Below are positions 43,746 through 53,947 of a stretch of DNA of 64,000 nucleotides, piece after piece (the first letter of the stretch is position 1; the number at the start of each line of letters is the position of its first letter). Below the pieces are notes generated by a model that was not told where the DNA came from, made no database searches, and saw nothing but the letters and a program-made list of their open reading frames with translations. The translations under genes and the position numbers were made by a program. Origin of the DNA: Todiramphus chloris collaris (taxonomy: Eukaryota; Chordata; Aves; Coraciiformes; Alcedinidae); NCBI GenBank assembly GCA_025345505.1, contig JANVCC010009742.1:885220-949219 (forward strand). The letters run 5' to 3'.

Positions 43746-44669
43746 ATGTTCCGTCTTGCACATATCTCCGACATTCACCTGTCGCCCCTGCCCGCGCTGA
43801 GCCTGCGTGAGCTCGTGTCGAAACGCATCACCGGCTATATCAACTGGCGGTCCAACCGCAAGGGCTCGATGACGGAAGGCACGCTCGATACCCTGGTTGC
43901 CGATCTGAAGGCGCAGGCGCCGGACCATCTGGCGGTGACGGGTGATCTCGTCAACCTGGCGCTGGATGAGGAACTGGAGACCGCCGAACGCTGGCTCAAA
44001 ACCCTGGGCAATCCGCATGACGTGTCCGTTGTCCCCGGCAATCACGACGCCTATGTGCCCGGCGCTTTGAAAAAAACCCGGCGTTACTGGGCACCATGGA
44101 TGCTGGGCGACCGCGAGGCAGCCGAACAGCGTCCGGTTGAGTTCCCTTACCTGCGGGTTCGCGGCGATGTCGCCCTGATCGGGGTGTCATCGGCCCGCGC
44201 CACCGCACCGTTCATGGCAACCGGCGATCTGCGCGACCGGCAGGCACGCCGCCTCGGCGAAATTCTCGATGAAACCGCCAAGCGCGGCCTGTTCCGGGTG
44301 ATCATGATCCATCACCCGCCGGTGCGCGGTGCAGCGCCGTCGCACAAGCGGCTGCTCGGCATCGGCCTGTTCCAGCGGACCGTGCGGCGGCACGGGGCGG
44401 AACTTGTCCTGCATGGCCATACGCATCTGGCGACACGCTACGCAATCGACGGCCCCGGCTGGAAGATACCCGTTGTTTGCGTGCCTTCCGCCAGCCAGAG
44501 CTTCGGCGGCCACAAGCCAGCGGCCCGTTTCAACATCTTTGCCATCGCGAAGACCGCTTCCGGCTGGTCATGCCGCATGACGGAGCGCGGCATCGTGGAT
44601 GCCGCCATGACCGTCGAGACGATAGCCGAGCACGAACTTCATGTCGGCGCTGTTTCCGCGCCCGCCTGA
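43746..44669 (+). CDS. Calcineurin-like metallophosphoesterase
   Basis: A 307-residue phosphoesterase with the full dinuclear site: DIH (D9, H11), GDLVNLA, GNHD in VVPGNHDAYV, the later His in MIHHPPV and the terminal GHTH in LHGHTHLATRY. It resembles the cAMP phosphodiesterase/Icc and LpxH-like class, but which substrate is split cannot be told. No signal peptide. It stands alone, divergent from the NUDIX gene and convergent with the next gene by 3 bp. Confidence 0.9.
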   Translation: MFRLAHISDIHLSPLPALSLRELVSKRITGYINWRSNRKGSMTEGTLDTLVADLKAQAPDHLAVTGDLVNLALDEELETAERWLKTLGNPHDVSVVPGNHDAYVPGALKKTRRYWAPWMLGDREAAEQRPVEFPYLRVRGDVALIGVSSARATAPFMATGDLRDRQARRLGEILDETAKRGLFRVIMIHHPPVRGAAPSHKRLLGIGLFQRTVRRHGAELVLHGHTHLATRYAIDGPGWKIPVVCVPSASQSFGGHKPAARFNIFAIAKTASGWSCRMTERGIVDAAMTVETIAEHELHVGAVSAPA

Positions 44670-44672
44670 GCG

Positions 44673-45305
44673 TTAGAAATAGGGTGAAAGCCGGTCCCAG
44701 AAAAAGGCGAGCAGTGCACCCGCACCCGCGAAAGCACCGATCAGCAGCCAGATGACCGCATTGACGAAATCATTCGCCATCGAGCGGTGCTGCCGAAACT
44801 GGACCGCCGGTGCCGCCGCCGATTGCGGGGCGGGCTCGGCCGGACCGGATGGCGCAGCAACAGCCGTGGAGCGCAGGCTGACCCGTTCGCCCTCCATCAT
44901 GCGCTGCCGTTCGACGATCCGCTCGGCAATGTAGGTGGTGACCGCGTCGGAGATCGGCTTCACTTCGGGCGACTCCGCCAGAACGCTCCGCCCAAGCCTT
45001 GTATCCCTGACAAAGCGATAGGTGCGCCTGTCCCGGCCCATCATCACATGCGCGGTGGCATCGATCCACAGGCGCGGCTGCAAGCCGGTGGAAATGGCAA
45101 AATCCCACTGCTCGTCATCGGCAGGAACTTCATCGAAAACCGGCTTCAGATCCTGCGCCAGGATTTCGATCCGGGCGAGATCGGCTTCCTTCATGTCGAT
45201 AACGACATCGCCGCGGTCGGCCGCTGCCACCTGCGCACCGCGAATGGCATCGCCCAGCCTGCGCCTGGCATCCATCGGGCTGATCTTGTCGTGCATCTCA
45301 CTCAT
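44673..45305 (-). CDS. Hypothetical protein with C-terminal membrane anchor
   Basis: A 210-residue protein without a named domain. The first 130 residues are soluble (MDARRRLGDAIRGAQVAAAD, RLWIDATAHVMMGRDRRTYR, SDAVTTYIAERIVERQRMME); then comes an Ala/Pro-rich linker, and the last 30 residues form one hydrophobic helix (FVNAVIWLLIGAFAGAGALL). It is thus a tail-anchored inner-membrane protein facing the cytosol. Similar proteins occur in Rhizobiales. The start is set at 45305 (MSEMHD) rather than 45320. Function unknown. Confidence 0.7.
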   Translation of the reverse strand: MSEMHDKISPMDARRRLGDAIRGAQVAAADRGDVVIDMKEADLARIEILAQDLKPVFDEVPADDEQWDFAISTGLQPRLWIDATAHVMMGRDRRTYRFVRDTRLGRSVLAESPEVKPISDAVTTYIAERIVERQRMMEGERVSLRSTAVAAPSGPAEPAPQSAAAPAVQFRQHRSMANDFVNAVIWLLIGAFAGAGALLAFFWDRLSPYF

Positions 45306-45381
45306 AGGCGTTTCCGGCAAGGTGGGGTTAAGGCATCATTAACAATATGCGTCCGTCGTTGCATCACAAACTTGTCCGAAT

Positions 45382-46146
45382 TCAGCCTGTGCGCACAGTT
45401 GTCGAAATGAGACTGATGACCTCGCCCGGAATCTCCTCGATCAGCATATGTCCGGCCCCGTCAAAACGATGTATCGAAAAACGCGGCGGCAGCCCTTCCG
45501 ATTGATACACCGGCAAGACATTGTCCAGCCGCCCCCATGCAACGGTGACCGGCATGGTGAAAGCCTGCAGGAAATCTCTGGGAATAGTCCCCTGCAAACC
45601 GTCTTTCATCATGCGCGCGAGAATGGCATCGAGCCGTTCGATCTGTCCCGGCTTGCGGCGCAGGTCCACGTCGCGCCGGATCATCTCTTCAGGAACAGGA
45701 TTGCGCCAGCCGAACATGCCCTCCAACGCCGCCTGAAGCGCGTCGTATATTCGCGCCGCCGCATAATGCCGAAGCAACCGCCCATTGATATCGGGACCGA
45801 AGCCGCCCGGAGCCAGCAAAGTCAGCGAGGCCACTTTTTCAGCGGCAAAGGCGGCAACCAGCGCGGCGGTTGCGCCGCCCATGGAGTGGCCGACCAGATG
45901 AACCCTTGGAATATCGCGCCTGTTGATGTCCTCAACAACCGCCTGCGCAAAATGGCGGGCGGTCACCGCATCGGGGTAATCCAGCGATGCACCATGGCCG
46001 GGCAGATCGAATGCAAGGGTCGGATGATCAGCGGAAATCGCCATTTGCACGGCATGCCAGACGGCGGCGGTTCCGCCAAACCCATGCAGGAAGACGACGG
46101 GTGTTCCATTCCCCTCACCCATCTCGATTGCGTGCAACTGATGCAT
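45382..46146 (-). CDS. Alpha/beta fold hydrolase
   Basis: A 254-residue hydrolase. The oxyanion motif is VFLHGFGG, the nucleophile S88 in LVGHSMGGATA, the acid probably in AWGRLDNVLP, and the His in FDGAGHMLIEE, giving a complete triad. The cap region is helical and short. No signal peptide. The substrate cannot be told. It lies downstream of leuA, but a strong terminator (46164-46189) separates them. Confidence 0.9.
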   Translation of the reverse strand: MHQLHAIEMGEGNGTPVVFLHGFGGTAAVWHAVQMAISADHPTLAFDLPGHGASLDYPDAVTARHFAQAVVEDINRRDIPRVHLVGHSMGGATAALVAAFAAEKVASLTLLAPGGFGPDINGRLLRHYAAARIYDALQAALEGMFGWRNPVPEEMIRRDVDLRRKPGQIERLDAILARMMKDGLQGTIPRDFLQAFTMPVTVAWGRLDNVLPVYQSEGLPPRFSIHRFDGAGHMLIEEIPGEVISLISTTVRTG

Positions 46147-46163
46147 GAAACGCTCCCAATAGA

Positions 46164-46189
46164 AAAAGGCCGCTTCGCAGCGGCCTTTT
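46164..46189 (-). terminator. leuA: Rho-independent terminator of leuA
   Basis: A perfect 11-bp stem AAAAGGCCGCT/AGCGGCCTTTT with a 4-nt loop; the minus-strand transcript ends in TTTTTC, 13 bp after the leuA stop. Confidence 0.9.
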
Positions 46190-46202
46190 GCAGATGTCCG
46201 GC

Positions 46203-47903
46203 TTATTTGCCGATGATGCGGTTGGCCGCCGAGACAATGCCCTCAAGCGAGGCGGCAACAATGCTCTTGTTGATGCCTGCACCGAAAATCTTGCCGTTCG
46301 GATGCTCGATTTCCATGTAGCTGATAGCCGCAGCATCGGAACCATGCTGGAGCGAGTGCTCCGAATAGTTGACGACCGAGAGCCTGAAACCGAGATAGTG
46401 CGACAGGGCATCGATGAAGCCGTCGACCGGACCTGTTCCCCTGCCCTCGATCCGCTTTGTCTCGCCGCGGTCGGTAATCTCCGCCGAGAGGATGCGCATG
46501 CCCTTGTGCTCCGTATCGGGATAGGTGTGGTGATCGACGAATTTCAACCGGGCATCCGGCTGATCGACATAAAGCTCGAGGAACCGCTGATAAATCTGCT
46601 TGGATGGCATCTCTTTGCCTTCCTCGTCAGTGATCTGCTGGATGTCATCGCGGAACTCAACCTGCATGCCACGCGGCAGATTGATGCCATAGTCAGCCTG
46701 CAGGATATAGGCGAGTCCGCCCTTGCCCGACTGGGAGTTGATGCGGATGATCGCCTCGTAGCTGCGGCCGACGTCTTGCGGATCGATGGGCAGGTAAGGC
46801 ACTTCCCACAGGGTCTTGTTGGCCTGCTTGATCGCCTTCATGCCCTTGTTGATCGCGTCCTGATGCGAACCGGAGAAGGCCGTATAGACCAGCTCGCCCA
46901 CATAGGGATGACGTTCCGGAATCACCAGCTGATTGGAATATTCGTAGACTTCCTTCATCCGGTTGATATCGGAGCAGTCGATTTCCGGATCGACGCCCTG
47001 CGTGAACATGTTGAGCGCCAAAGTCACGATGTCGACATTACCCGTCCGCTCGCCATTGCCGAACAAGGTGCCTTCCACGCGGTCGGCACCGGCCATCAGA
47101 CCGAGTTCCGTCGTGGCGATACCCGTTCCGCGATCATTGTGCGGATGCAACGAAATGATCAGGTTTTCACGGTTGTCGAGCTGGCGGCACATCCACTCGA
47201 TACGGTCCGCATAGACATTCGGCGTCGACATCTCGACCGTCGACGGCAGATTGATGATCAGCTTGTTGTCAGGGGTCGGCTTGACGATTTCCGTGACCGC
47301 ATTGCAGATCTCCAGCGCCACGTCGAGTTCCGTTCCGGTAAAGCTTTCCGGCGAATATTCGAAGCGGAAACCGCCGCCGGCCTTTGCCGCCATGTCGGTG
47401 ATCATCTTGGCCGCATCGGTGGCAATGGTTTTGATGCCGCCGACATCCTTGTTGAACACAACCCGGCGCTGCAATTCGCTGGTCGAGTTGTAGAAATGGA
47501 TGATCGGCTTGGTTGCGCCCTGCAGGGATTCAAAGGTACGGGTGATCAATTCGGGACGGCACTGCACCAGGACCTGCAGGGATACATCGTCGGAAATATT
47601 GCCTTCCTCGACACACCAGCGGGCAAAGTCGAAATCCGTCTGCGACGCCGAGGGAAAGCCGATCTCGATTTCTTTGAAACCCATGTCGAGCAACAGGGCG
47701 AACATCCGCACCTTGCGGTCGTGGCCCATCGGGTCGATCAATGCCTGGTTGCCATCGCGCAAATCGACGGAACACCAGATCGGCGCTTTTTCGATGCGCT
47801 TGGACGGCCATTGCCGGTCCTTCAGATCAACCAGCGGATACGGTTCATATTTCTTGCGGGCATCGGGCATGCCCATGGTGCGGGGAGCGGTCATATCGGT
47901 CAT
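46203..47903 (-). CDS. leuA: 2-isopropylmalate synthase
   Basis: A 566-residue type 2 (long) LeuA, the first enzyme of leucine synthesis, condensing acetyl-CoA with 2-oxoisovalerate. IWCSVDLRDGNQALIDPM holds the metal-binding Asp and catalytic Arg, ISLHPHNDRGTGIATTEL the two metal His, and GNGERTGNVD the acetyl-CoA region. The C-terminal domain after residue 430 is the leucine-sensing LeuA dimer domain (IEGRGTGPVDGFIDAL). Start at 47903 with GAGAAG upstream. It is preceded by a Leu-rich leader and an attenuator-like terminator (47994-48152). Confidence 0.96.
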   Translation of the reverse strand: MTDMTAPRTMGMPDARKKYEPYPLVDLKDRQWPSKRIEKAPIWCSVDLRDGNQALIDPMGHDRKVRMFALLLDMGFKEIEIGFPSASQTDFDFARWCVEEGNISDDVSLQVLVQCRPELITRTFESLQGATKPIIHFYNSTSELQRRVVFNKDVGGIKTIATDAAKMITDMAAKAGGGFRFEYSPESFTGTELDVALEICNAVTEIVKPTPDNKLIINLPSTVEMSTPNVYADRIEWMCRQLDNRENLIISLHPHNDRGTGIATTELGLMAGADRVEGTLFGNGERTGNVDIVTLALNMFTQGVDPEIDCSDINRMKEVYEYSNQLVIPERHPYVGELVYTAFSGSHQDAINKGMKAIKQANKTLWEVPYLPIDPQDVGRSYEAIIRINSQSGKGGLAYILQADYGINLPRGMQVEFRDDIQQITDEEGKEMPSKQIYQRFLELYVDQPDARLKFVDHHTYPDTEHKGMRILSAEITDRGETKRIEGRGTGPVDGFIDALSHYLGFRLSVVNYSEHSLQHGSDAAAISYMEIEHPNGKIFGAGINKSIVAASLEGIVSAANRIIGK

Positions 47904-47993
47904 TTGCTTCTCGTTTCCGGCCGTCTGCGCATCTCTGGCGCTCGTGCGGCACTTTTTCAAGCGTTGGAATGGTCTTGTAAAGGGGTAAGGAGC

Positions 47994-48023
47994 AAAAAGC
48001 CTGGCGGCACTTTCGACCGCCGG
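47994..48023 (-). terminator. leuA: Attenuator (leu leader terminator)
   Basis: On the minus strand, CCGGCGG (48017-48023) pairs with CCGCC-A-GG across an 8-9 nt loop and is followed by CTTTTTG. The segment CGCCGG within the end of the leader coding region (48042-48047) is complementary to the 5' arm CCGGCG, giving a competing antiterminator. Stalling at the Leu codons would favour read-through into leuA. Confidence 0.7.
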
Positions 48024-48032
48024 ACGCTCCTC

Positions 48033-48152
48033 TCAACGAGCCCGGCGATCGCCGATAAGGTCGAGAAGAAGCGGAAGGAGATGGGCGCGGCTGGTCAAAC
48101 CCGCAAAAGCGGATTTGGCAAAAGACGACAAATGTGTCTGGCGCGTTTCCAT
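48033..48152 (-). CDS. Leucine-rich leader peptide of leuA (leuL-like)
   Basis: A 39-codon frame from ATG 48152 to TGA 48033-48035. Eight codons are Leu, six of them in a row of eight residues (HLLPLLLDLI at 24-33, codons CTC CTT CCG CTT CTT CTC GAC CTT). It lies just before a terminator with a competing antiterminator and about 130 bp before leuA. There is no Shine-Dalgarno site; the promoter's -10 ends about 9 bp before the ATG, so the mRNA is likely leaderless. This matches the arrangement of trpL in the same window. Deduced from sequence alone. Confidence 0.7.
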   Translation of the reverse strand: METRQTHLSSFAKSAFAGLTSRAHLLPLLLDLIGDRRAR

Positions 48153-48161
48153 GGGCCAGAC

Positions 48162-48189
48162 AATTAAACGACTGTCCGGCCGGATGCAA
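48162..48189 (-). promoter_or_regulatory. Promoter of the leu leader
   Basis: On the minus strand, TTGCAT (48184-48189), a 16-bp spacer and TTAATT (48162-48167). The -10 is 9 bp before the leader ATG, so transcription should begin at or next to that codon. Confidence 0.5.
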
Positions 48190-48207
48190 GAGGTGTTCGC
48201 AGGGAAC

Positions 48208-49152
48208 TCAGTTCTTCTTCAACTCGGCGCTCGTTCCCGAAAGCCACTCGCTGACAACCCGCACGTCGTCATTGCCGAGGCCATGATCGGATTTGATCGA
48301 CTTCGCCTCGACCGTTGCCCCGTGCGCGCGCAGCAGGGTCGCAAGCGCCGGTGCGAACGGCGCATAGGTCTGGTCGGCAACGCCGGAAACCGTCAGAACC
48401 CGCGCACCCGCGAGATTGGCATCGGTATTTTCCGTCAGCACCGGCATGGAGCGCAGCAGCACCGCCTGCTTGACCATATCCGGATAGAGCATCATCACCG
48501 CGCCAACCAGGTTGGCGCCGTTCGAATAGCCGAGGAACGTCGTGCGGTTGAGATCGATCTTGTACTTCTCCGTCGCCTGTTTCAGGAAACCGGCGAAGGC
48601 CTTGGCCTCGACATGAATGTCCTTCTGGTCGAAGCTGACCGCCGTCAGACGGCGGTACCACCGGCTGGTGCCATCCTGCATGATCCGGCCGCGAACGGCG
48701 AGCAGAAGCGCATGCGGCGCGATCTTGGTGGCGAGGGAAACAAGGCTGGTTTCGTCCTGGCCCGAACCGTGCAGGAGAACCATCGCATCGCCATTGGGCT
48801 CATCTGGCCGGTAGAGCCGGTATTTGAACGCAAGGTCGTCCCGCAGCGCGCTCTCGCCCTGTGGAAGAATCTCGCCCTTCACTGCTTTTTTCAACATGCC
48901 TGCACCGCCTGTTGCAACGATATTGATGGGCTGCGCCTTCTCTGGCGCGGGCACCACGGCCTGCAGCTTCTGCCCACAGGCGGCCGTGCTAGTTTTACCG
49001 GTAACCGCAAGCGGATCAACCGGGTTCGCCGGGGCCGGTACCTTCGCTGCCGCCGGCTTCTCACAGTCGATGATGATCCGTGCGCTGGCGGGATAGGCCG
49101 CAGCCATCAATGAAAGTCCGGTGAGAAGTGCGTAGAGGGTCGGTTTACCCAT
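48208..49152 (-). CDS. Exported alpha/beta hydrolase (phospholipase/carboxylesterase-like)
   Basis: A 314-residue protein with a signal peptide (YALLTGLSLMAAAYPASA). After a Pro/Ala-rich stretch, the hydrolase domain (about 95-310) has the oxyanion motif VLLHGSGQDE, nucleophile S210 in FLGYSNGANLV, and a probable Asp in VSGVADQTYAP with His in KSDHGLGND. The fold and motifs are those of the YpfH/dienelactone hydrolase-type esterases. A periplasmic esterase is inferred; substrate unknown. AGGAT precedes the ATG. Confidence 0.85.
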   Translation of the reverse strand: MGKPTLYALLTGLSLMAAAYPASARIIIDCEKPAAAKVPAPANPVDPLAVTGKTSTAACGQKLQAVVPAPEKAQPINIVATGGAGMLKKAVKGEILPQGESALRDDLAFKYRLYRPDEPNGDAMVLLHGSGQDETSLVSLATKIAPHALLLAVRGRIMQDGTSRWYRRLTAVSFDQKDIHVEAKAFAGFLKQATEKYKIDLNRTTFLGYSNGANLVGAVMMLYPDMVKQAVLLRSMPVLTENTDANLAGARVLTVSGVADQTYAPFAPALATLLRAHGATVEAKSIKSDHGLGNDDVRVVSEWLSGTSAELKKN

Positions 49153-49456
49153 AAGTTAATCCTGACAGTTAAAGGTTAACTAATTTTGTAAACAGCCGCG
49201 GTTGTCCGCCCGGCGCTGCCTGCGTTTTCGGCGCTCGATTCCCTGGAGAATGGATGCTTGCCGCCAAATCCTGTGTCCCCTGACTGACGCCCCCGGCGCT
49301 GCATCATTGATGGAGAAATTGCTTTGCTTGATGATGGTGTCATTCAGCGGCTCTGCTATGTCAATATAATTGTAACAAAATCATGACAGCTCGAAACATT
49401 GCGTGACAAATGTTGCTGCCGTGCACCGGTTTTTGTAGTTCTCCAAACCATATCCA
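49153..49456. other. 304-bp intergenic region
   Basis: No gene is seen. The right part (49350-49440) is AT-rich relative to the chromosome and lies beyond the 3' end of the DUF4143 gene; the left part must hold the esterase promoter. No terminator was recognised after the DUF4143 gene. Confidence 0.4.
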
Positions 49457-50689
49457 TCAGTTCCAGAGATGCGAGACCGGCACGGCAAACATGTCGGAAC
49501 CGAATGGAACGATCTTATCGCCATCATAGATGAGTATGCCCGCGATGAACCGGCCCTTGGTTACCTCTGAAAGCTTACGCATTCCACGAAAATCCTCAGA
49601 TAGCACGGTAGCCGATGCTTTGACTTCAATACCCACTATCCCGCCCCGATTGCCTTCAAGAACAAAATCAACCTCTTCCTGGATCCTGGTTGTCGTTCTG
49701 AAATGATGAATGGATATTCCTCGCGCCTGCATCCATCCGACCTGTTTAAGAAGCTCGCCAAAAACAAAGCTTTCCAGCAAGTGGCCAAACACATTCCGGT
49801 CTGACCTGATTCCATCCATTGTAACGCCGAGTACGGAAGCAAGGAGCCCGCTATCAAGAAAGTGAAGTTTTGGTGACTTGGTCAGCCGCGATATCTGATT
49901 GTTATGCCATGGTTCCACTGAGTGAGTGATATACAAGGCCGTGAAAATATCGAGATAGCGTTGGACGGTCTTGCGATCCATCGCCAGAGCGACGCCGATT
50001 TCACTGAAATTGATGAGTTTTGCCGAATAGTTTGCAAAGAGACGTATCAGCCGCGGCATGTCACCAATACGGGTGATATCAGCGATGTCGCGCACGTCCC
50101 GCTGAATGATCGCGTTTATATAATCGAGATACCATTTGGTGCGTCGCTCTGGCGTGGAGCGTGCAATTGCTTCGGGATAACCGCCCGCCAGGACAATCTC
50201 GATTAATTCCGGGCCTGAAACAGATATTCCCTTGACTGGCGCCACCTGGCCTTGAAAAGCCAGTTCAAGGAAGGTTGGCTTCTGCCCGCTTATTTCGCCC
50301 CGCGCCAACGGCATCAACGTAATCACTTCCATCCGTCCCGCCAGGGAATCGGCGACTGTTGGCAGCGTCATGATGTTGGCCGAACCGGTCAGCAAGAAGC
50401 GTCCCGGGCGCGGATCTTCATCAACACTTTCCTTGATAGCGAGCAATAAACCAGGCGCTCGTTGAATCTCGTCAATCGTCACGCGATCCAGGCCTCTTAT
50501 GAAACCTTTGGGATCAGCTTTGGCAGCATTCAATATCGTTGCATCGTCGAGCGTAAAATAGCTCCTCGACGAGTCTGACACAGACTTTGCCAAGGTCGAT
50601 TTTCCCGCCTGACGCGGTCCTGCAATCAGCACCACCCGACTGTCCGTCAGAGCAGACCTTATATCCTGTGCAGAAAATCTCGGATACAT
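49457..50689 (-). CDS. AAA_14/DUF4143 ATP-binding protein
   Basis: A 410-residue ATPase. Walker A is GPRQAGKS (24-31), Walker B RVTIDEIQRAPGLLLAIK, then LLTGSANIMTLPTVADSLAG (sensor 1 region). The C-terminal DUF4143 domain includes KSPKLHFLDSGLLASVLGV and IQEEVDFVLEGNRGGIVGIE-VK, the latter with the D-x-E-V-K pattern of a PD-(D/E)XK nuclease-like fold. Such genes are widespread, scattered and often horizontally moved. The codon use is less GC-rich than in its neighbours. Three phased repeats lie just upstream (50727-50786). Function unknown; defence or DNA-related roles are speculative. Confidence 0.88.
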   Translation of the reverse strand: MYPRFSAQDIRSALTDSRVVLIAGPRQAGKSTLAKSVSDSSRSYFTLDDATILNAAKADPKGFIRGLDRVTIDEIQRAPGLLLAIKESVDEDPRPGRFLLTGSANIMTLPTVADSLAGRMEVITLMPLARGEISGQKPTFLELAFQGQVAPVKGISVSGPELIEIVLAGGYPEAIARSTPERRTKWYLDYINAIIQRDVRDIADITRIGDMPRLIRLFANYSAKLINFSEIGVALAMDRKTVQRYLDIFTALYITHSVEPWHNNQISRLTKSPKLHFLDSGLLASVLGVTMDGIRSDRNVFGHLLESFVFGELLKQVGWMQARGISIHHFRTTTRIQEEVDFVLEGNRGGIVGIEVKASATVLSEDFRGMRKLSEVTKGRFIAGILIYDGDKIVPFGSDMFAVPVSHLWN

Positions 50690-50726
50690 TTTCCAACTGC
50701 GTGAACGACTTGCAAATTGACCCTAA

Positions 50727-50786
50727 GACACAAAACGGGATTCTACAAGACACAAAACGGGAATCAAAGTGACGCAAAAGGGGATT
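50727..50786. repeat. Three 22-bp-phased direct repeats upstream of the DUF4143 gene
   Basis: GACACAAAACGGGA at 50727, the same 14-mer at 50749, and GACGCAAAAGGGGA at 50771, each followed by A/T-T. The spacing is exactly 22 bp, two helix turns, so a protein would meet all three on one face. They sit 38-97 bp upstream of the DUF4143 start, as expected for an operator or iteron array. Confidence 0.75.
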
Positions 50787-50849
50787 TAAAACACCAGATT
50801 ACCGTCCCAACCAAGAGCCTTGCCCGCATCGCCCACAAGGTTGGATCGC

Positions 50850-51758
50850 TCAGGCGAAGGGAACGGCAGCCGTGCCGATCGGCAGTTTGGCCTCTTCTTC
50901 CGGTTCGACGTGAATGACGACACTCGAATCGGGAATCTGCTGCATCAGCGCATTTTCCATCCGGTCGCAGATGACATGGGCGTCGCCGACGCTCATGCTG
51001 GCATGAACGACCAGATGAAACTCGATGAACGTTACCCGCCCGGCAATGCGCGTCTTCAGGTCATGCACCTCAAGCGCACCGTCGGCATTGGCCGAGATGA
51101 CGTCGCGGATGCGCATGGTTTCCTCGGTGGGAACACCCACATCCATCAGGCCCTGCACGGACGACCCGATCACACTCCAGCCTTGCCAGAGGATGTTGAG
51201 CGCAACGATCATCGCAAGCAGCGGATCGAGGAACGTCCAGCCGGTGATCACGGCACCGACGAGACCGATGAACACACCGATGGAGGTCACCACATCGGTC
51301 ATGATGTGCTTGCCGTCCGCCAGCAAAGCCGGCGATTTGTGCCGGCGACCACGGCTGATCAGCAGCGTGGCCCACAGGGCGTTCACAAGCGAGGCACCGC
51401 CATTGATCGCCAGACCCAGCCATGGTTCCTCCATGACCTTGGGCATCTCCCAGGCGGACCAGACTTCCCGCAGGATCAAGAGCGCCGCCACGACGATCAG
51501 CACTCCCTCGAGCACCGCCGAAAAATACTCGGCCTTGTGGTGCCCGAACGGGTGATTCTGGTCGGCGGGCTTGTGGCTGACACGGATCGCCCACCAGGCG
51601 GCAAGCGCCGCCACGACATTCACGATCGATTCCAATGCGTCGGAGTAGAGCGCAACGGAACCGGTGACGTGATAGGCGGCATATTTCAGTGCCAGCACGC
51701 CCATGCCGACGAAAATCGACCAGAATGCCAGTCGCTGGACGACGTTTTCACCTTCCAT
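50850..51758 (-). CDS. Cation diffusion facilitator (CDF) metal transporter
   Basis: A 302-residue inner-membrane protein with about six helices and a cytosolic C-terminal domain (about 210-295: VISANADGALEVHDLKTRIA). The metal-site motifs are YSDALESIVN in TM2 and DGKHIMTDVVTS in TM5; HPFGHHKAEYFSA is the His-rich cytosolic loop. The family exports Zn, Fe, Cd, Co or Mn; this one's metal is unknown. Its ATG (51758-51756) overlaps the trpE(G) TGA by one base, so it is probably translated from the trp transcript. Confidence 0.93.
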   Translation of the reverse strand: MEGENVVQRLAFWSIFVGMGVLALKYAAYHVTGSVALYSDALESIVNVVAALAAWWAIRVSHKPADQNHPFGHHKAEYFSAVLEGVLIVVAALLILREVWSAWEMPKVMEEPWLGLAINGGASLVNALWATLLISRGRRHKSPALLADGKHIMTDVVTSIGVFIGLVGAVITGWTFLDPLLAMIVALNILWQGWSVIGSSVQGLMDVGVPTEETMRIRDVISANADGALEVHDLKTRIAGRVTFIEFHLVVHASMSVGDAHVICDRMENALMQQIPDSSVVIHVEPEEEAKLPIGTAAVPFA

Positions 51759-53947
51759 CAGGCAGCTCGCTCCTTGGCCTTGCGCGGCAGATGCGCCACG
51801 ATGTTTTCAATCATGCGCATGCCCGCATTATGCCCGAGGGTCATAATCGATTCCGGATGGAATTGCACCGCCGCAATCGGTTCGCTCTTGTGTTCGAAGG
51901 CCATGATGACCCCGTCTTCGGTCTCCGCCGTCACGATGAACTCATCCGGCAGCCGCACCGGATCGGCAAAGATCGAGTGATAACGGCCAACTGTGACCTC
52001 CTTCGGCAGCCCCGAAAAAATCCTGCCCTGCTTTGTAATCCGGATACGTGACGGTTTTCCATGCATCGGAACGTGCAACTGCCGCAGCGTGCCGCCATAG
52101 GCTTCCGCCAGCGCCTGCAAGCCGAGGCAGACACCGAAGATCGGCAGGTCGCGCTTGCGCGCGTTCTTGATGGTCGCCTTGCAGTCGAAATCCTCCGGCG
52201 TGCCCGGCCCCGGCGAAAGCACCACCAGATCAGGCTTCAAACGGTCGAAGATTTCATCGGGCACCGGCGTGCGAACGGTGGTCACGGTGGCGCCCGTCTG
52301 CCGGAAATAATTGGCGAGCGTATGGACGAACGAATCCTCGTGGTCGACAAGCAGAATCGACAGCCCCTCGCCGACCCGCGCAACGGCGCGTTCTTCCACG
52401 GGGATATTGCTCTTGTGCGCCTCGCGCACCGCCGCAATCATCGCGGAAGCCTTGAGTTCGGTTTCCGCCTCTTCCTCTTCAGGAATGGAATCGAACAGCA
52501 GCGTCGCGCCCGCCCGTACCTGTGCGATGCCGTCCTTGATGCGGATGGTGCGCAGGGTCAGGCCGGTGTTCATGTCGCCATTGAAATTGACCATGCCGAT
52601 GGCACCGCCGTACCAGGCGCGCGGGCTGCGTTCGTTCTCTTCGATGAAGCGCATGGCCCAGAGCTTTGGCGCACCCGTCACCGTTACGGCCCATGCATGC
52701 GACAGGAAGCCGTCAAAGGCGTCCATATCCTCGCGCAGACGGCCCTCGATATGGTCTACGGTGTGAATGAGCCGGGAATACATTTCGATCTGGCGGCGGC
52801 CGATGACGCGCACGGAACCCGGCTCGCACACCCGGCTTTTGTCATTGCGGTCCACGTCCGAGCACATGGTGAGTTCGGACTCGTCCTTCTTGGAATTGAG
52901 CAGCTTGATGATCTGCTCGGCATCGGCAATCGCATCCTCGCCGCGCTTGATCGTTCCTGAAATCGGGCAGGTCTCGATACGGCGGCCAACCACGCGCACG
53001 AACATCTCGGGCGAAGCGCCGACGAGATATTCGTTGTCGCCCAGATTGATGTAGAAGGAATAGGGCGACGGGTTGATGGCTTTCAGACGGCGCGAAATCA
53101 CCGAAGGCTTGGTCTCGCAGCGCTCGTAGAATGTCTGGCCCGGCACCACTTCGAAGAGATCACCGCGCTTGAAGCTTTCCTTGGCTTTCTTGACGAGTTC
53201 CGCATAATCGCCGGGATTGTGGTCGCCGCGACCCGGGATCATGCTCGTCGGCTTGAATGCCCTGGCTTCGGTTTCCCGCGACAGGCCTTCCGTGGAAGCA
53301 CCCTCGAACGCGTATTCATACCGGTCAAGCCATGCCTTGGCGGCGTGGTGATCGACGACCAGAATTTCGTCCGGGAGATAGAGCACGATGTCGCGCTGGT
53401 CATCCGGCCGCTTCAACTTGTACTGGATCGGATCGAACTGGAACGCGAGATCATAGCCGAACGCGCCATACAGGCCGAGATTGGCATCCTCCTCGCTGAA
53501 GAACAGGGCGACGATGCCGCGCAACACCGTGAAAACCGAAGGGATGCGCGAGCGCTCTTCTTCGGTGAACGGACGGCTCGGCAGGGCGATTTCAAGGTCA
53601 AGCTTCGTTGCGCCTGCGGCGGAAACCGACACTTCGGCAAGGGCAGAAACCGCCCTGTGGATCGGGCGCAACAGGATTTCACCGCGCTTGTTCAGCGCCT
53701 CGATCGTCATATGCCGGCCATTGGAGGTGATGACAACCGGAGGATCGATAATGGCCGTATCCCACCGCGTGTAACGGCCGGGATATTCATAGTTGGACGA
53801 GAAAACTGCCCCGCGCCGTTCATCCAGCCCGTCGACATAGCTGTCGATGGCGCTGGCATAGGCAGTCGCAATGCGTGACCGGGAGATGGTAACACCGCCT
53901 GCCGTGTCGAATATTTCCACGTCGCCCTCAATTCTATGCATCATCAT
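51758..53947 (-). CDS. trpE(G): Fused anthranilate synthase TrpE(G)
   Basis: A 729-residue fusion of both anthranilate synthase subunits, the first step of tryptophan synthesis. The TrpE part (about 1-500) has the chorismate-binding blocks [42 protein letters not shown]-like [20 protein letters not shown] and [13 protein letters not shown]. The TrpG part (about 535-729) has the amidotransferase Cys in [16 protein letters not shown] and the His/Glu in VQFHPES. Such fusions are the rule in Rhizobiales. Three consecutive ATGs follow GGAG; the first (53947) or second is the start. Controlled by trpL attenuation. Confidence 0.95.

Follow-up and report, generated by a model that had tools for sequence, protein, structure and literature searches.

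A leucine-codon leader upstream of leuA in Alphaproteobacteria: a probable counterpart of the actinobacterial LEU element

The window, which is the entire 64,000-nucleotide stretch of DNA analysed here, is Phyllobacterium-like by its leuA gene, and the assembly that contains it comprises 1.17 Gb in 889 contigs. It is a bacterial contig, from a symbiont or a contaminant, and the assembly around it is probably that of a eukaryotic genome. Among the best 80 of 578 LeuA relatives, the nearest named ones are from Phyllobacterium (loci L001, L002, L003 and L012), with LeuA proteins that are 96–100% identical. The leuA product is above the cut-off for TIGR00970, PF00682, PF22615 and PF08502 and is a LeuA of the TIGR00970 type. 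The gene is preceded by a leader open reading frame with a promoter-like site, and by the segments designated A to F in Table 1. The leader peptide, METRQTHLSSFAKSAFAGLTSRAHLLPLLLDLIGDRRAR followed by a stop, has 39 codons of which eight encode leucine, six of these within the eight-codon stretch LLPLLLDL, exactly as the initial annotation had described it. The peptide has no Pfam or NCBIfam match up to an E value of 1.

On either side of this region lie two further features. The open reading frame upstream of the leader (48208–49152, minus strand) encodes an esterase-like alpha/beta hydrolase, which falls far under the cut-off of the MhqD family model and just under that of Pfam Abhydrolase_2. 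On the 3' side of leuA (46157–46234, minus strand), there is a GC hairpin followed by CTTTTTCT, which is likely the leuA terminator; the Rfam STnc50 model matches the same interval below threshold (E 0.16).

Table 1. Positions in the window of the leuA leader, its pairing segments and leuA.
Feature	Positions	Strand	Basis or remark
Promoter-like site of the leader, TTGCAT-N16-TTAATT	48162..48189	(-)	Direct reading; TTG spacing across loci
Hexamers and start codon	TTGCAT 48189-48184, 16 nt, TTAATT 48167-48162, 9 nt, ATG 48152-48150	(-)	Direct reading
Leader ORF, 39 codons and stop	48033..48152	(-)	Inferred transcript start at the ATG or no more than about 1 nt from it
A, Leu run CTC CTT CCG CTT CTT CTC GAC CTT	48057..48080	(-)	Control codons and anti-Shine-Dalgarno strand
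CTTCTCG within the Leu run	48062..48068	(-)	Complementary to the leuA Shine-Dalgarno region over 7 nt without mismatch
B, CGATCGCCGG, last leader codons	48042..48051	(-)	Partner C; 10 pairs, covariation
E, AGGAGC, directly 3' of the leader stop	48026..48031	(-)	Partner F; 6 pairs
C, CCGGCGGTCG	48014..48023	(-)	Partner B or D
D, 3' arm of the C:D hairpin (the supposed terminator)	48003..48008	(-)	Hairpin scan, folding
T-run TTTTT	47994..47998	(-)	Not conserved
F, GCTCCT	47988..47993	(-)	Partner E
leuA Shine-Dalgarno region CGAGAAG	47907..47913	(-)	Direct reading; coevolution with the Leu run
leuA, 2-isopropylmalate synthase, 566 aa	46203..47903	(-)	Start ATG 47903; profile matches

The leader was compared across 81 loci: the window and 80 named-genome leuA loci, the latter being the best 80 of the 578 LeuA relatives (LeuA 80–100% identical). 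A Leu leader with its Leu run at the end is present upstream of leuA in all 81 of these loci, which were found via LeuA, and the leader pattern was broadened twice after missing loci before this count was reached. The frame, which the initial annotation expected to be kept in relatives, is 38–41 codons long in this group, called here the Rhizobiaceae type. The expected synonymous change in the Leu run was also found in the main: related leaders differ there by 64 codon changes, of which 57 are synonymous. In the N-terminal part of the leader there are 925 synonymous versus 1563 non-synonymous changes (the pairs are not independent), and this part gives little sign of protein-level constraint. 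The Leu codons of the leader are mostly CTT and CTC; CTT alone accounts for 281 of the 417 Leu codons (67%) in the runs of the 81 leaders versus 100 of 3046 (3%) in leuA of 80 loci.

The start of the leader is likely leaderless, that is, the transcript would begin at the leader AUG. This follows from the promoter spacing: a TTG element lies 35–37 nt 5' of the leader ATG in 81/81 loci, accompanied by a -10 element beginning TA, which leaves hardly any room for a Shine-Dalgarno sequence. The ATG was chosen as the in-frame ATG that best fits this spacing, and a TTG..TA site at the right distance is found at 3.1% of positions displaced by 8–56 nt. The leaderless start proposed in the initial annotation is thereby strengthened. 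The promoter-like TTGCAT-16-TTAATT site with an ATG 9 bp further on, from the same source, can be read directly and has the conserved spacing, but a sigma-70 consensus scan of positions 47500–48700 returned 0 promoter-like sites (0.4 in shuffles) and missed it. A leaderless leader is described for Sinorhizobium meliloti trpL in PMC7298713 and PMC10117765.

A covariance model of the Rhizobiaceae-type leader (R1) has hits in 18 of 297 genomes sampled from the order. In the genome of S. meliloti there is a single strong copy, the next match having an E value of 0.29. When the leader peptide of S. meliloti was compared with known proteins, in a search that is weak for short peptides, two Sinorhizobium proteins were returned, both labelled 'hypothetical protein'. 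Two records of a plasmid collection carry leuA together with the full leader: L242, the Rhizobium leguminosarum plasmid pSK03, and L241, labelled S. meliloti pSymB, with R1 matches at E 1.7e-19 and 1.8e-22, respectively. Several of the leuA-bearing records in this collection are megabase-sized.

The conserved parts of the leader RNA occur in the order A-B-stop-E-C-F, with F situated about 20 nt beyond C. Alignment A1 contains the 63 distinct sequences among the 81 leaders, with the ends of L008 and L013 corrected by hand; F is still wrong for these two in the T-run counts, the stepwise folds, the helix source table and the shorter-RNA folds. The CGCCGG motif, which had been proposed to pair with the 5' arm of the terminator, is part of segment B, the 10-base complement of C, and all ten B:C pairs are formed in 60 of the 63 distinct sequences. 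The six pairs of E:F are complete in 63/63. Since B:C and E:F cross, they would together form a pseudoknot, and the nested alternative is C:D.

The covariation in the stems that the initial annotation predicted is seen in B:C, where alignment columns 38 and 71 hold A-U in 35 and G-C in 28 of the 63 sequences, and few independent events may lie behind it. For this helix, 99.5% of cells are paired versus 96.9% in shuffles (0/500 as high) and at most 53.5% when the strands are slid. Its covariation score was reached by 0/500 shuffles; its two doubly changed pairs were reached by 203/500. The helix E:F shows one compensatory change (in L063) and otherwise little variation, its covariation score is exceeded when it is slid by +2 or +3, and its support across the aligned leaders is mostly plain conservation. 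In a coevolution test on nine thinned loci, B:C gave 6/500 and C:D gave 49/500, which is weak.

Stepwise folding was used to follow these helices as a function of ribosome position. With the ribosome on the first, second, third or fourth Leu codon, B:C is predicted in 60, 57, 66 and 75 of the 81 leaders, respectively; on the fifth it is predicted in 22 of 78 and C:D in 56 of 78; and with the ribosome at the stop codon, C:D is predicted in 79 of 81. In the minimum-energy fold of the window, the Leu run pairs with E. The switch logic, in which exclusive helices are set by the position of the ribosome on the Leu codons, is real, and to this extent the leucine attenuator that had been proposed at this locus stands; the output of the switch is in question, and here the proposal of an intrinsic terminator does not hold up.

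A second leader type was found in the same order. Here, 79 further upstream regions were read: nine with a distant LeuA of the same type (49–60% identical) and 70 with LeuA of the TIGR00973 type, for which 90 genomes had been matched. A second Leu leader pattern occurs in 63 of the 79 loci (6 of the 9 distant TIGR00970-like and 57 of the 70 TIGR00973 loci). The search pattern required Leu codons, a final Pro codon with the stop, and GGGG or GAGGG downstream, so that these features were selected for; pairing of the stop codon itself was not. In this type, the Leu codons are followed by the Pro codon and stop, and CCCC plus the stop codon pair with a downstream CTCAGGGG-like arm. Alignment A2 comprises 58 of the 63 leaders (from L120–L198; L141, L162, L167, L187 and L191 were excluded), and the stop codon is UGA in 53, UAG in four and UAA in one of the 58. 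The stop codon is inside a covarying stem, the 3' arm matching whichever of UGA, UAG or UAA is present, and the predicted hairpin has double changes at 9 of 15 pairs. It also contains a strongly conserved 4-nt bulge, GRCN, with no settled partner.

As for a pseudoknot in the second type, the in-register helix is weak (63.8% of cells) and free-register duplexes coevolve (0/500). A leaderless start is unsupported in this type, with the promoter spacing in 7 of 63 loci versus 5.9% at displaced positions. The covariance model of the second type (R2) matches 89 of 385 genomes of the class and 39 of 299 of the phylum, the two samples overlapping. The 38 R2 matches that were fetched had been located from the RNA model only, and all 38 have LeuA within the same 2.3–3.1 kb locus. 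The Leu leaders precede two LeuA families, TIGR00970-like and TIGR00973 (L115–L158), and the leuA gene and its leader may have been exchanged independently.

The stepwise folds bear directly on classical ribosome-mediated transcription attenuation, in which C:D (with E:F) would terminate transcription when leucine is plentiful and B:C would be the antiterminator. Helix B:C prevails with the ribosome on the first four Leu codons and C:D with the ribosome at the stop, which speaks for this explanation, but the preponderance of C:D already at the fifth Leu codon goes against it. The distance between leader and leuA varies widely, and termination tolerates such variation. In the window, the hairpin GGCGG...CCGCC at 48021–48003 (minus strand) is indeed followed by TTTTT, so that the terminator with a T-run that the initial annotation described is physically present; a terminator scan of positions 47500–48700, however, found one terminator-like site versus 1.2 in shuffles, and the T-run is rare among the relatives. 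Four of the 81 loci have five consecutive T after C:D, namely the window, L001, L003 and L012. When a stem of 5 or more pairs with 5 or more T in the next 8 nt is required of both places, 5 of the 81 leader hairpins qualify (the same four and L060), compared with 22 of the 81 leuA 3' ends. Counting only the density of T, anywhere between C:D and a point 25 nt beyond F, a value of 5 in 8 is attained in 20 of 81 leaders and one of 6 in 8 in 5 of 81; four T directly follow F in L031 and L032. In the second type, the downstream arm is followed by 5 or more T in 8 in only 2 of 63 leaders.

The trpL attenuators of the same order were used for comparison (11 loci with TrpE above cut-off, of which the cut locus L095 yielded no trpL). 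By reading of the sequences, 8 of 10 finish with a GC hairpin that has a T-rich tail behind it; the exceptions are L093, which is without a terminator, and L094, with its T-rich stretch located elsewhere. The strict hairpin scanner is a poor yardstick, having recognised 2 of the 10 trpL terminators and the 22 of 81 leuA 3' ends. Lineages of this order do use U-tracts in an attenuator, namely trpL, and an intrinsic terminator as the conserved output of the leuA leader was rejected on the comparison of 5/81 leaders with 8/10 trpL attenuators. In most species, the leader hairpin would need to terminate without a U-tract, and transcription attenuation, which also leaves the coevolution of Leu run and Shine-Dalgarno described below unexplained, is an unlikely explanation. 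In the window clade, the T-run may add an intrinsic terminator or may be chance, and control there may have shifted. With no terminator conserved, nothing in the shared features of this leader gives reason to expect the trans-acting small RNA that had been suggested.

Loss of transcription could also depend on Rho, with a ribosome on the Leu codons barring Rho from the RNA, or with the hairpin pausing RNA polymerase for Rho. Such a scheme fits with the lack of a conserved U-tract and with a pyrimidine-rich Leu run, and in the Rhizobiaceae type, the C/G ratio after the hairpin is 1.28, versus 1.06 upstream and 1.07 in leuA. This excess of C is nevertheless small, is almost gone in the second type (1.11), and the match to the Shine-Dalgarno region is again left unexplained, making Rho-dependent attenuation quite improbable as the principal control.

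The match concerns the Leu codons themselves. A coevolution test was done in which Shine-Dalgarno regions were exchanged between loci and the pairing with the Leu run was compared; the leuA start of each locus was set by a rule that used the Shine-Dalgarno score or the purine content and was blind to the leader. For the second type, 0/1000 permutations reached the real pairing between Leu run and leuA ribosome-binding site, for 62 of the 63 loci as well as for 29 thinned loci (z -4.5). For the Rhizobiaceae type, the figures are 8/1000 with 14 thinned loci (6/1000 on repeat) and 8/300 with all 81. Controls taken from segments next to either partner, or from within leuA, gave z values of -0.4 to -1.5. 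The longest unbroken helix is at least 7 in 14 of the 29 thinned loci versus 32% of permuted pairs, a modest excess. Complements of the Leu codons at the leuA Shine-Dalgarno reach 10 nt in L137, 9 nt in L138, L142 (including a CTG codon) and L149 (including a neighbouring ATC codon), and 8 nt in L197; in these five, the Shine-Dalgarno complements the codons that the locus actually uses. In many of the 63 second-type loci, the Leu codon complements are short or misplaced. That the Leu codons coevolve with the Shine-Dalgarno region points to translation control and not to a terminator as the output. Biased leader codons are expected by attenuation theory, according to PMC1183508, and the Leu codon bias also suits pairing.

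Folding predictions with and without a ribosome mask were made for the Shine-Dalgarno region. Across the 81 leaders, its mean unpaired probability is 0.29 in the free RNA, 0.50 with the ribosome on the Leu codons and 0.31 with the ribosome at the stop; an equal-size mask displaced upstream gives 0.26, and 49 of the 81 loci gain more than 0.1 with the ribosome on the Leu codons. Shorter RNAs gave 0.26, 0.55 and 0.25, respectively, with a gain in 55 of 81. The second type gave 0.37 in the free RNA, 0.48 with the Leu-codon mask, 0.45 at the stop and 0.38 with the displaced mask; on stalling, 29 of 62 gain more than 0.1 and 5 of 62 lose. As a ribosome at the stop frees the Shine-Dalgarno almost as well as one on the Leu codons, the second type does not distinguish the stop position.

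The window clade responds differently in these predictions. The window has the 7-nt match of CTTCTCG with CGAGAAG, which nested folding does not form in this clade, and in the window, L001 and L012, the Shine-Dalgarno is mostly open (0.86–0.87) and falls to 0.63–0.69 with the ribosome on the Leu codons. For the window alone, the values are 0.87 free and 0.63 masked; in the shorter RNA the response is flat (0.60 and 0.57). This predicted response in the wrong direction is the main result against a LEU-type reading for the window itself.

The fold could instead be the binding site of a regulatory protein, the leader peptide being incidental, as proposed for the actinobacterial LEU element in PMC1262725. 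Core nucleotide conservation is high, with a mean column identity of 76% in A1, which would suit a protein site. Such a site does not account for Leu residues that are kept while their third bases vary, nor for an in-frame start codon at the promoter-like site in 81/81 loci; both observations suggest that translation of the leader frame serves a purpose. Joint selection on the Leu residues and on Shine-Dalgarno pairing, as far as it can be read from aligned loci, favours a ribosome-driven switch over a binding protein, and the latter is quite improbable.

The comparison of loci demonstrates conservation of the leader frame, the distance of the promoter site, helices B:C and E:F, and the locus-specific match of Leu codons and Shine-Dalgarno. 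The reading that best suits these sequence patterns, with a probability of roughly 0.6, is that the leader is a LEU element in an alphaproteobacterial form, which would sense leucine and act mainly on leuA translation. When charged tRNA-Leu is plentiful, ribosomes would traverse the leader and leave, whereupon B:C and E:F would form a compact, possibly pseudoknotted core. The core would place the Leu-codon strand beside the leuA start, and the Leu codons would mask the leuA Shine-Dalgarno by pairing with it. Under leucine shortage, a ribosome stalled on the CTT and CTC codons would cover the Leu-codon strand, the Shine-Dalgarno would be freed and leuA would be translated. Because the ribosome on the leader would cover the very strand that otherwise hides the Shine-Dalgarno, the Leu codons would be both sensor and blocking strand. 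Effects on transcript length, through Rho or decay, would be secondary.

Leucine attenuation in Gram-negative bacteria is taught as transcription termination. A broader proposal, put forward tentatively and at somewhat less than even odds, is that one device regulates leuA in two phyla and with two LeuA families, that its control codons also hide the Shine-Dalgarno, that it is a main leucine control in Alphaproteobacteria, and that it was overlooked for lack of a terminator. If the LEU-type reading is right, then many Alphaproteobacteria, including rhizobia, sense leucine via a halted ribosome that uncovers the ribosome-binding site of the next gene. In addition, a question that has been open since 2005 for the actinobacterial LEU element would become testable in a laboratory strain that is easy to work with, since in Alphaproteobacteria the Leu codons as well as their pairing show signs of selection.

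The LEU element of Actinobacteria was described by Seliverstov et al. (2005, PMC1262725), who found a leader that has a Leu-codon run and a conserved pseudoknot, where a base stem joins the Leu codons and the leuA Shine-Dalgarno; the available part of that paper names no terminator, and reports effects of leader-codon mutations that are at odds with classical attenuation. Four actinobacterial leuA loci (Nocardia, Nonomuraea, Tsukamurella and Microbacterium; LeuA 54–56% identical) were read here, these being the four listed records that were fetched, with the Streptomyces record H34 left out. They have the order A-B-stop-E-C-F-Shine-Dalgarno, as in the window. As best matches read with no control, B:C is 11–12 bp with the leader stop codon in its loop, the loop segment E matches F over 5–7 nt, and the Leu run matches the ribosome-binding site over 5–10 nt.

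The covariance models link the leader families weakly. R2 matches the Nonomuraea (E 1.3e-4) and Microbacterium (E 3.6e-4) leaders and R1 that of Nonomuraea (E 0.011), and the Nocardia and Tsukamurella leaders are matched by neither. Between the two alphaproteobacterial types, R2 reaches two of four leaders of the Rhizobiaceae type, with E values of only 0.19 and 0.6, and R1 matches 0 of 4 second-type leaders. Judged from these matches, common descent is possible and so is convergence.

Like the LEU element, the alphaproteobacterial leader lies upstream of leuA, has an open reading frame with a Leu codon run and a pseudoknot-capable core, and has a stem of Leu run and Shine-Dalgarno that is supported across loci by the permutation tests. 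It differs in its occurrence in Alphaproteobacteria, in the 38–41-codon, probably leaderless leader of the Rhizobiaceae type, in the sequences of E and F, and in the second type, where the stop codon is in the E:F-like stem. In the literature covered, no paper on an alphaproteobacterial leuA leader was identified. Vitreschak et al. (2004), reportedly a survey of attenuation in proteobacteria, may have predicted some of these leaders.

The leader shares a control-codon leader peptide and competing helices with the leu and trp transcription attenuators (RF00512; S. meliloti trpL/rnTrpL), and unlike these it has neither a conserved U-tract terminator nor an Rfam match. No Rfam match up to E 5 overlaps the leader in the window, RF00512 is absent among the four matches up to E 5 in positions 44000–52000, and its covariance model matches none of seven further loci up to E 1. 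In the translational attenuators of ermC-like resistance genes, a ribosome stalled on the leader opens the Shine-Dalgarno of the downstream gene. A stalled leader ribosome would likewise open the downstream Shine-Dalgarno of leuA; here, unlike in the ermC type, an amino acid would be sensed via its own codons, and these codons would themselves be the blocking strand.
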